IMG/VR virus record: IMGVR_UViG_3300046492_000303
Coordinates: 1-32,451 of that record
Length of the DNA stretch: 32,451 bases
Source: a virus
Reading direction: 5' to 3' (one strand)
Positions 22,054 to 27,139 of this stretch are shown here, piece after piece. The number at the start of each line of letters is the position of its first letter. Within the stretch, counting starts at the first letter, position 1. The notes beneath the pieces are model-generated. The model was not told where the DNA came from and ran no database searches. It saw nothing but the letters and a program-made list of their open reading frames with translations. The translations under genes and the position numbers were made by a program.

Positions 22054-23073
22054 CTATGCGGCTTTCTTGATGCCGTAGGGATTGAACCGCACAACCTCGT
22101 CGCCGAGCCATTCATTAAGCTGCATGAAGCGCCTTTGCAGGGGTTCGATTTCGTTCGCACCGAACACCTCGGCCGCCGTGTCGGCCGCGCCGAAACCGCC
22201 GGTATTGCTCGGCACGATCCCCATGAGCTGCGGCGGGATGCGATGCGCGGCGAGCAAGTCGTCGCGCGTGACATTCTTGATGTTGAAAAACTCGTCTTTC
22301 GCAGTGACCTCGGAAACCGGAATGAGCTGTATGCCGTCTTTCTTGCCGGCCGGCGCGTACATGAAAAGGTTTCGGAAATTGCCTGGCCCCTTGCTGTTTT
22401 TCAACGCCTCGCGAAGTTTGTCGACATCCTCTTGCGATTGCGCCGCGTCTGTCATGTACAGAATAAAGCCGGCGTGCGAACCGTTCTCGTAATACCGCCG
22501 GCGAAAGAGCGTCGCCGATTCATTCAACCAGGCCGCGTGCAGGGCGCCGAGATATTCCGGCAAGCCGTACACCTCCTGGTTAATGTCCGGTTCCATCAAG
22601 TGATAGATCACACCGGCATCGAACTCGTGTTCGACCTGCCAACCGTTGACCTGGTAATAGCCGAGCAAGTCGACCGAGCGGCGCACGTATTTCGCCGGCG
22701 CGCGTTTGAGCGGCAAGCGGCTGTTAAGCCTGCTTTTCGGCGCCTCGATCGGGGCATTACCGAACACCAGGAAATCGAGCGCCCACTTGCCGAACTCGTC
22801 GCGCGAAAGCAACTTGTGCGGAATGAACGTCGACGCGAGCACGTTGCGTTTGAAGTAGATAGCCGAGCTGTGATGGACGCCGGCGCGAAAGGTTTTCGCC
22901 AGGCCCGAGAATGACACCGGCGGCTCGAACCATTTGCCGGCCGACCACGTTTCGACGTAATCGAGAATTTCGGGGCGATCCATCACCGGGATAGGATCGC
23001 CGAAGGTGAAAGCCTCGGCTCTCGCCGGCGCGGCCGGCGTCGGCTGCTCGATGCTGTTTTGTCGCTTGCTCAC
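22054..23073 (-). CDS. Q: Portal protein gpQ
   Basis: The product has 339 residues (P2 Q is about 344). The start is GTG, overlapping the P stop as GTGA. Family features include FTFGDPIPVMDRPEILDYVE, WFEPPVSFSGLAKTFRAGVHHSSAI, HEFDAGVIYHLMEPDINQEVYG, RIPPQLMGIVPSNTGGFGAADTAAEVF and FNPYGIKKA. It forms the dodecameric portal ring at the head vertex through which terminase drives DNA. It is transcribed leftward with P, as in P2, towards the hairpin at 21985-22018. Confidence 0.96.
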   Translation of the reverse strand: MSKRQNSIEQPTPAAPARAEAFTFGDPIPVMDRPEILDYVETWSAGKWFEPPVSFSGLAKTFRAGVHHSSAIYFKRNVLASTFIPHKLLSRDEFGKWALDFLVFGNAPIEAPKSRLNSRLPLKRAPAKYVRRSVDLLGYYQVNGWQVEHEFDAGVIYHLMEPDINQEVYGLPEYLGALHAAWLNESATLFRRRYYENGSHAGFILYMTDAAQSQEDVDKLREALKNSKGPGNFRNLFMYAPAGKKDGIQLIPVSEVTAKDEFFNIKNVTRDDLLAAHRIPPQLMGIVPSNTGGFGAADTAAEVFGANEIEPLQRRFMQLNEWLGDEVVRFNPYGIKKAA

Positions 23074-24851: not shown

Positions 24852-25013
24852 GGCCTCAAGTTTCCCGCGCCGCGCGCGCGCAAGCACGCTTAACACCTTG
24901 TATCCAAAGCGAAAACAATCGCCGCGCGTTGAGTCATTGCGCTATCGAACGCAAGATATCAACTCACGTTGAACCCATACCGAACCCCCCGGAACCCTGT
25001 TGGAGAACTAACG
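24852..25013. promoter_or_regulatory. Divergent late promoter region of P/Q and O-N-M with two dyads
   Basis: TTGT-N13-ACAA (24898-24918) resembles the TGT/ACA Ogr site, which in P2 is centred near -55. Its centre lies about 55 bp upstream of an AGATAT -10-like box, giving a start near 24963 for gene O. A second nested dyad GTTGA-N4-TTGCG-N8-CGCAA-N4-TCAAC spans 24928-24963 and could serve the leftward P transcript in the same way. Family consensus is N12, so the fit is close but not exact. Confidence 0.5.
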
Positions 25014-26084
25014 ATGCAAAAACGCAAGTTGTCGCTTATGTCGTTCGCCGTTGCGGCGATCGCGTTCGCTTTCACGATGGACGCACACGCGGCGACGCTC
25101 GCCGTGAGCACGGTTCTCAATCATGCCGACGCGCTGCCTTTCCTGTTGCACGATCAACTCGGCGTGCAATCCGTCGCCGCAAGCCTGGGCGCAATGGCGA
25201 TCGGCTCGACCGCGAGCGCTGCGACCAGTGCGACGCAGCTCGCGAAGTCGAAAATGTTTCGCATCGCGGTCGAAGGTGCGACGACGGACGGCCGCACGAT
25301 CGAACGCGCATGGCTCGAACAAATCGCGGCGAACTACTCGGCCACGAAATATGGCGCCCGCGTGAATCTCGAACACTATCGCGGCATCGTGCCCGATGGC
25401 CCGTTCAAGGCATACGGCGACGTGCTCGCGGTCGAAGTGCGCGAACTCGACGGCGAATTCGCCGGCAAGCTCGGCCTCTATGCGCAAATCCAACCGACCG
25501 CCGACCTCATTGCACTGACGAAGGCGAGCCAGAAGATTTACACGTCGTGCGAAATCGATACGTCGTTCGCCGACTCGAAACAAGCCTATCTGATCGGCCT
25601 GGCCGTGACCGATAGCCCCGCGAGCCTCGGAACGGAAATCCTTTCTTTCGCAGCTCAAAACCCGGCCGCGCATCCCTACGCAGCTCGCAAGCAAAACCCG
25701 GCGAACCTGTTCACCGTCGCCGAAGAAACCGCGATCGAATTCGAAGCCGAGGCGGAAACGCCGACGCTGCCGGCGCTGTTCGCCCGCGTTAAGGAAGTGC
25801 TCGGCCTGGCGAAGAAGAAGGGCGCGGCCGACGACTCGCGTTTCGCTGACGTAGCGCAAGCGGTCGAAGAACTCGCCACGCACGGCGCCGAGCAATCGCA
25901 AGCCCTGGCCGCGAGCGAGATTCGCGTCGCCGAGCTGGCCGCCCAGCTCGACGAGCTGGTGAAGGCACGCGAAGCCGATCGCCAAGCATTCGACGAGCTG
26001 CACACGCAGCTCTCGACCACGAGCACCGGCACCACGCGCCCCGCGTCGACCGGCGCCGGCGCAACCGTCGCGACCGACTGCTAA
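25014..26084 (+). CDS. O: Capsid scaffold/protease gpO with signal-peptide-like N-terminal extension
   Basis: The product has 356 residues (P2 O is about 284). The P2-like part begins near residue 79 (SKMFRIAVEGATTDGR). The serine-protease residues are in place: Asp92 (TTDGR), His121 (NLEHYRG) and Ser178 (YTSCE), with spacing like P2 Asp19/His48/Ser107. The C-terminal part is a coiled-coil scaffold (QALAASEIRVAELAAQL). The extra N-terminus has a basic start (MQKRK), a hydrophobic run (FAVAAIAFAF) and AHA-A, as in a Sec signal peptide. The ATG at 25014 has a strong GGAG site; internal starts at 25194 and 25254 have none. gpO shapes the procapsid and processes N and itself. Confidence 0.93.
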   Translation: MQKRKLSLMSFAVAAIAFAFTMDAHAATLAVSTVLNHADALPFLLHDQLGVQSVAASLGAMAIGSTASAATSATQLAKSKMFRIAVEGATTDGRTIERAWLEQIAANYSATKYGARVNLEHYRGIVPDGPFKAYGDVLAVEVRELDGEFAGKLGLYAQIQPTADLIALTKASQKIYTSCEIDTSFADSKQAYLIGLAVTDSPASLGTEILSFAAQNPAAHPYAARKQNPANLFTVAEETAIEFEAEAETPTLPALFARVKEVLGLAKKKGAADDSRFADVAQAVEELATHGAEQSQALAASEIRVAELAAQLDELVKAREADRQAFDELHTQLSTTSTGTTRPASTGAGATVATDC

Positions 26085-26131: not shown

Positions 26132-27139
26132 ATGCAAAACAAAACCCGCGAGCTGTTTAACGCCTATCTGGCGGCAATCGCGAAGCTCAACGCGATCGCC
26201 GACGCGTCGAAGAAATTCGCCGTGTCGCCGTCGACTCAACAAACCCTGGAAGCGCGTTTGCAGGAATCGAGCGCCTTTCTCGCATCGATCAACGTCGCGC
26301 CCGTGACCGAGCAAATGGGCGAAAAGCTCGGCCTCGGCATTGGCGGCCCGATCGCCGGCACGACCGACACGAAGGTAAAGGACCGCGAGACGATCGACCC
26401 TACCGACGTGGATGCAAACGGGTATTTCTGTTTTCAGACGAATTTCGATTCGCATATCCCGTTCGCAAAGCTCGACATGTGGGCGAAGTTTCCGAACTTT
26501 CAAACCCTCATTCGCGATCTGATCCTCACGCGTCAAGCGCTCGATCGCATCATGATCGGTTTCAACGGCGCGTCGCGCGCGGCCTCGTCCGACCGTGCGG
26601 CAAATCCGATGCTGCAAGACGTCAACAAGGGCTGGTTGCAGCACTACCGCGAGCAAGCCCCGCAACGCGTGATGGATCACGGCGCCGTCGCCGGAAAGAT
26701 CACGATCGGCGCGGCCGGCGATTACAAGAATCTCGATGCGCTGGTGTATGACGCGAAAACGTCGCTGATCGACCCGTGGCACCGTCAAGACACGCAGCTC
26801 GTCGCGATCCTCGGCGACGCGCTGATGAAAGACAAGTATTTCCCGATCATCAACCAGGACAACAAGCCGACCGAGCAAATTGCGGCCGACCTGGTGGTTT
26901 CGCAAAAGCGCGTCGGCGGCCTGCCGGCTGTCACGGTTCCTTACTTCCCGGCCGATGGCGTTTTGATTACGCGCCTCGATAACCTGTCGCTGTACTACCA
27001 GGAAGGCGCACGCCGTCGCTCGATCGTCGAAAACGCAAAGCGCGATCGCATCGAAAATTACGAGTCGTCTAACGACGCGTATGTCGTCGAAGATTTCGGC
27101 GCCGGCTGTTTCGTCGAAAACATCGAACTGGCGGAGTAA
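26132..27139 (+). CDS. N: Major capsid protein gpN
   Basis: The product has 335 residues (P2 N is about 357). It is the HK97-fold coat protein of the P2 family. Characteristic segments are KTRELFNAYLAAIAKLN, FAVSPSTQQTLEARLQESSAFL, GYFCFQTNFDSHIPFAKLDMWA, DVNKGWLQHYREQAPQRVMDHG and DNLSLYYQEGARRRSIVENAKRDRIENYESSNDAYVVEDF. The N-terminal 30 or so residues are probably removed by the gpO protease during maturation. It lies between O and M in P2 order with a ribosome site CGGAG upstream. Confidence 0.96.
   Translation: MQNKTRELFNAYLAAIAKLNAIADASKKFAVSPSTQQTLEARLQESSAFLASINVAPVTEQMGEKLGLGIGGPIAGTTDTKVKDRETIDPTDVDANGYFCFQTNFDSHIPFAKLDMWAKFPNFQTLIRDLILTRQALDRIMIGFNGASRAASSDRAANPMLQDVNKGWLQHYREQAPQRVMDHGAVAGKITIGAAGDYKNLDALVYDAKTSLIDPWHRQDTQLVAILGDALMKDKYFPIINQDNKPTEQIAADLVVSQKRVGGLPAVTVPYFPADGVLITRLDNLSLYYQEGARRRSIVENAKRDRIENYESSNDAYVVEDFGAGCFVENIELAE

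Follow-up and report, generated by a model that had tools for sequence, protein, structure and literature searches.

In a P2-type phage resembling KS14, the capsid scaffold/protease gpO is made, in all likelihood, with a real and selected Sec-type signal peptide as the first 26 residues of its N-terminal extension. This reading is drawn from an architecture that relatives keep while their sequences diverge. Below, we describe the extension, its conservation and its distribution, and we weigh the roles that it could have in the assembly of the phage head.

The gpO Gene and Its Genomic Context

The window, i.e., the whole stretch of 32,451 nucleotides that was analysed, holds the genome of a KS14-like phage of the P2 type, complete or nearly so; FLC5, FLC10 and KS14 match it over 79–87% of the 25 kb tested, with an identity of about 80%. 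Gene O is divergent from the terminase gene P and is followed downstream by the capsid gene N, the order of the ORFs being that found in KS14 and P2. The product of gene O is a P2-type capsid scaffold/protease preceded by 80 extra residues, MQKRKLSLMSFAVAAIAFAFTMDAHAATLAVSTVLNHADALPFLLHDQLGVQSVAASLGAMAIGSTASAATSATQLAKSK (coordinates 25014–25253), after which the core begins with MFRIAVEG from 25254. The Pfam family Phage_GPO (PF05929) is matched by residues 79–356 with E 2.5e-98 and 329 bits, against a curated cut-off of 33.6. The features of the gene are the following (arrows mark cuts):

24999–25013, plus strand: ribosome-binding site and spacer, GGAGAACTAACG, recognised from the sequence; a GGAGA/GGAG box is kept ahead of the extension start in relatives
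25014–26084, plus strand: gpO ORF, open from the ATG at 25014 to 26084
25014–25091, plus strand: Sec-type signal peptide, residues 1–26, with an MQKRK n-region, a hydrophobic run and D-A-H-A, where signal peptidase I is predicted to cut behind A26
25092–25253, plus strand: variable linker, residues 27–80, with an Ala/Gly-rich part nearly free of Lys and Arg and basic last residues, TQLAKSK
25248–25262, plus strand: candidate gpO self-cleavage site SKMF↓R after Phe82, at the border between extension and core, proposed from the Phe-ending P2 sites
25254–26084, plus strand: gpO core, with a serine protease domain (Asp92, His121, Ser178) and a C-terminal scaffold helix (PF05929, E 2.5e-98)

Residues 1–80 match no Pfam family and, in phage or plasmid records, nothing outside gpO; the idea of the extension as a separate gene was rejected on this ground. 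A PDB sequence search with gpO returned chance coiled-coil matches only, and a PDB fold search with its AlphaFold model returned nothing below E 0.07 and was uninformative.

A Probable, Conserved Sec-Type Signal Peptide

The earlier note on this DNA had claimed a Sec-signal-like extension on gpO, and the relatives confirm it. In the window the predicted site is A-H-A↓A, followed by a linker almost without Lys and Arg. A signal-peptidase-type site (AxA type) is kept in 82/82 unique extensions, in the form of AHA, ANA, AQA, TQA, VHA, ADA or AYA, then A or S. These 82 signal sequences form 16 groups at <60% identity, and throughout them the site is preserved, preceded by a basic n-region and a Lys/Arg-free run of 19–25 residues. 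A rule-based test for signal peptides (basic n-region, hydrophobic core of 10–15 residues, small residues at –3/–1) is passed by 58/58 relatives. About 8% of the shuffled versions of the Ala-rich extension also pass this test, so that a single sequence is weak evidence for a signal; as far as sequences can tell, the strength of the case is the conservation across divergent members and not one sequence alone. In the 46 closer sequences, the mean amino-acid identity is 85% for residues 1–28 (dN/dS about 0.32), 55% for the linker (dN/dS 0.59) and 84% for the protease (dN/dS 0.21).

The hydrophobicity of the signal is moderate (KD over 12 residues of about 1.9–2.8; OmpA, 2.5), as is typical of post-translational Sec substrates. 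The AlphaFold model of gpO places a low-confidence helix at residues 9–35, and that of the locus L100 (mean pLDDT 53) has a helix at 8–24 and is otherwise uninformative. Three divergent members (L099:2890, L101:2887 and L102:2887) have an L-V/A-A-C motif in the hydrophobic run, lipoprotein-box-like and upstream of the AxA site, the Cys of which is absent from the sisters L100 and L103.

The Linker and the Second Hydrophobic Stretch

Lys and Arg account for 6 of 2500 linker residues (0.24%) vs 10% in the core, and Asp/Glu (121) and His (107) are tolerated. A low content of Lys and Arg is expected right after a signal peptide, in residues that must enter the translocon. In the AlphaFold model the linker is of low confidence and mostly disordered. 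The second small-residue hydrophobic stretch that the earlier note had pointed out is present, with a KD over 19 residues of about 1.1–1.6 that makes it marginal as a membrane segment, but the hydrophobic clustering of the linker is no better than that of shuffled linkers (31 representatives, combined p 0.67). Composition alone predicts a stretch as strong as this one, which leaves a second membrane segment unsupported, and a procoat-like hairpin with a second membrane helix, attractive at first, was set aside after the same comparison. The MAKSK-like basic residues before the core do not count as evidence of topology, because they are also found in gpO without the extension. Finally, a role of the extension as a secreted peptide has no specific support, since conservation within it is lowest downstream of the cleavage site.

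The Protease Core and Its Cleavage Sites

The catalytic triad is intact: the invariant Asp92, His121 and Ser178 align with Asp19, His48 and Ser107 of P2 gpO. In the AlphaFold model, the core has helices at 252–268 and 275–335. We take Asp19 and His48 to be catalytic residues of P2 gpO, and P2 gpQ to be cleaved after residue 26. The catalytic role of S107 in P2 gpO is documented, gpO acts inside the procapsid, and cleavage in P2 occurs after Phe31 of gpN and after residue 141 of gpO (PMC7552001). The P2 sites SKKF↓TVEP(S) (gpN), YLEF↓CRTA and MEAF↓TFGE all three end in Phe, and their counterparts in the window are SKKF↓AVSP, ILSF↓AAQN and EAF↓TFGD. A P1-Phe rule for this protease family is suggested by the sites of gpQ (22054–23073, minus strand), gpO (25014–26084) and gpN (26132–27139), all conserved with Phe.

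That gpO cuts off the extension on its own, at SKMF↓RIAVEG, is plausible by analogy, because all of the P2 sites end in Phe and SKMF↓RIAVEG resembles SKKF↓TVEPS of gpN; Phe82 is invariant in 24 relatives. P2 gpO has a similar SKFF↓RIG, at which we know of no cut.

Distribution Among Related Phages

The extension is common to the plaque-forming phages KS14, FLC5 and FLC10 and is found in ten prophages of Burkholderia, Paraburkholderia and Caballeronia, and in many more sequences from scans of IMG/VR. Within the KS14-like group no relative starts at MFRIAVEG, in agreement with the earlier note, which had taken the extension as part of the protein; starts close to the core are seen in more distant P2-type phages (P2, KS5, KL3 and others). 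In the published table of the KS14 paper, gpO of the related Burkholderia phages KS5 and KL3 has 273 and 270 residues, respectively, vs 345 in KS14.

The extension is present at 144 of the 305 loci that have a gpO core (82 unique N-termini), 161 begin ≤26 residues from the core and none lies between, a count that covers only loci where the core was found, includes some contigs more than once and appears two-state partly by rule, since the choice of start in the second group favours the one nearest to the core. In the family of Burkholderia, 60 of 398 sampled genomes have a gpO match and about 13–14 gpO loci carry the extension; in an order-wide sample of 399 genomes, 16 have gpO and the extension is in the query genome only.

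On the tree of the core, most of the carriers are in one part, amid several signal-less sisters (L086, L088–L092, L094, L152, L153, L160, L163, L168 and L169); L094, without the extension, and the carrier L083 are neighbours there. A phage of metagenomic origin (L119:2818–3819), placed away from the main group, has a different signal-peptide extension, MKRTFFRILPMIGIAAAAMFAIDAHA, which suggests an exchange or an independent gain. Since carriers are mixed with signal-less sisters and L119 is outlying, the history of the extension appears to include more than one event of loss, gain or swapping. On the same tree, L013 and L132 passed for carriers only because of a loose pattern and are false positives. 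In two host prophages (L010:3001–4578 and L015:3001–3612) gpO is broken after about 200–240 residues, being fused to other sequence or truncated, with the signal extension intact; these are probably decaying prophages.

Possible Role in Head Assembly

The signal may take the scaffold/protease to the inner membrane, so that procapsids would begin there and be freed later by cleavage, a role to which we give a little less than an even chance. The signal would bind Sec or the membrane insertion machinery and direct nascent gpO to the inner membrane, and gpO located there would nucleate the assembly of the procapsid with the portal and the capsid protein. The core would probably stay or fold in the cytoplasm instead of being fully exported, since the signal is only moderately hydrophobic and there is no convincing second membrane segment. 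The release of the finished procapsid would then come from cutting of its tether, with signal peptidase I (after AHA) and gpO (at SKMF↓R) as the candidate enzymes. This membrane model is favoured by the conserved architecture over divergent signals, by the Lys/Arg-poor linker and by the intact triad together with the Phe sites. It also draws on the two-state N-termini (partly a product of the rule for picking starts), the single good ribosome site, the frame kept through all changes of linker length, the presence of the extension in KS14, FLC5 and FLC10 and the precedent of SPP1 and T4. Against it, gpO is internal, so that anchors on all copies would pose a steric problem, barring an early cut or the insertion of only a few copies, and the second hydrophobic stretch is not significant and marginal as a membrane segment. 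Moreover, sisters such as L094 live without the extension, and nucleation at the membrane through the signal is therefore not essential to this type of phage. More tentatively, we propose in general terms that one lineage of tailed phages employs a host Sec signal peptide on its internal scaffold/protease, thereby directing procapsid assembly to the inner membrane, and sets the heads free by proteolysis.

The extension might instead be a cytoplasmic structural propeptide or assembly tag that never meets Sec and, for example, binds the portal or capsid protein or keeps the protease inactive. Such a tag would suit a protein known to work inside the procapsid (PMC7552001), the low-confidence model helix at residues 9–35 and the fact that close phages manage without the extension. 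Nevertheless, we consider it unlikely, as neither the AxA↓A behind the hydrophobic run, which persists where other positions diverge, nor a linker depleted in Lys and Arg but not in Asp, Glu and His would be needed for it. Even less probable, in our view, is a true export in which some of the gpO, or the protease part at its N-terminus, reaches the periplasm and acts there, or a jam of the Sec translocon by the folded core late in infection that weakens the host envelope. A complete signal peptide, an export-friendly linker and the absence of a convincing stop-transfer segment are what such a function would call for, but the same chains must provide the cytoplasmic scaffold and the core is unchanged with respect to cytoplasmic gpO relatives.

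Constraint on the DNA and Start of Translation

In codons 1–30 (25014–25103) synonymous differences are 0.19–0.22, about half of those elsewhere; for the remaining codons of gpO, and for gpN in these phages, they are mostly 0.34–0.56, with the exception of a 15-codon block of the protease (121–135), also at 0.23. Codon choice, the start of translation or a 5′ end exchanged recently may lie behind the low synonymous variation. This low variation is the one observation in favour of these 30 codons being a regulatory or translation element with the peptide as a by-product, which we judge very improbable: distant members keep the protein pattern despite quite different DNA and protein sequences, amino-acid changes are constrained too, and covariation adds next to nothing to the consensus RNA fold (term –0.28). 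The fold over the start has no clear structure, and an RNA structure at this position was rejected as weak.

As the earlier note had claimed, the only good ribosome site is at the front of the extension: GGAG lies upstream of 25014, and the ATGs at 25194 and 25254 have no Shine-Dalgarno sequence. This pattern is shared by the relatives, and nearly all of the IMG/VR carriers have their sole good ribosome site at the extension start, L099 and L101 having an additional start further upstream. In KS14-like phages the extension is conserved and the same start is annotated in KS14 gp34 (345 aa, GGAGAcctaacaATG, in the published table of the KS14 paper) and in FLC5 ORF41. In Paraburkholderia L008 and Burkholderia L010, the last 39 residues ahead of the core contain no ATG, GTG or TTG, and the length of the linker differs among relatives with the reading frame always kept. 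The single good ribosome site at the front, the annotated starts, the relatives without an internal start and the preserved frame make it very probable that gpO is synthesised with its extension, and probably every copy is; the start at 25014 is not mis-called. A true start at 25194 or 25254, with the extension as an untranslated in-frame leader, is scarcely credible, since an ATG is present at both positions in the window but the ribosome site is absent from both, several relatives have no internal start at all and the extension is protein-constrained and in frame.

Relation to Known Systems and Meaning

With P2 gpO (PF05929, PHROG 73), the protein of the window shares the core domain (45% identity), the Asp/His/Ser residues, the Phe-ending cleavage sites and the gene order P-O-N-M-L; unlike it, P2 gpO starts with MAKKVSKFFRIG and has no signal peptide, the window protein having about 75–80 extra residues. 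The gpO of Kisquattuordecimvirus (KS14 gp34, FLC5 ORF41 and FLC10 gp5) has the same start and extension, with 62–75% identity over residues 1–333, and differs in sequence divergence only. A signal peptide on gpO is not mentioned in the records of KS14, FLC5 and FLC10 or in the accessible parts of the KS14 and FLC5 papers; the former applied LipoP to its phages and, in those parts, reports no signal peptide on gp34. Likewise, a literature search, with most subscription journals outside its scope, found no tailed phage whose scaffold or prohead protease is described as having a signal peptide.

The precursor of the major coat protein of M13 (gp8 procoat), likewise a structural protein of a phage, has a cleavable signal peptide, but it also has a strong second membrane helix, whereas the second stretch of gpO is marginal, and M13 is not tailed. 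In SPP1 the procapsid precursors are membrane-attached through the portal (PMC13212656), and membrane-associated assembly of T4 is cited in the same paper. The start of procapsids at the inner membrane in SPP1 and T4 is what we propose, from sequence, for the phages with signal-bearing gpO; in SPP1 and T4, however, the membrane element is the portal and not a scaffold with a signal.

Where in the cell tailed phages begin to build their heads, and how, is a question still to be answered; for SPP1 and T4, initiation at the membrane via the portal has been seen. Our analysis suggests that a P2-related group of phages of Burkholderia and relatives makes its scaffold/protease with a Sec-type signal and may start building heads on the inner membrane. 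If this is true, a scaffold-borne signal would be a way to the membrane different from the portal of SPP1 and T4. A conserved export signal on the scaffold/protease, together with laboratory-grown phages and signal-less close relatives, makes the question of a start at the membrane directly testable.
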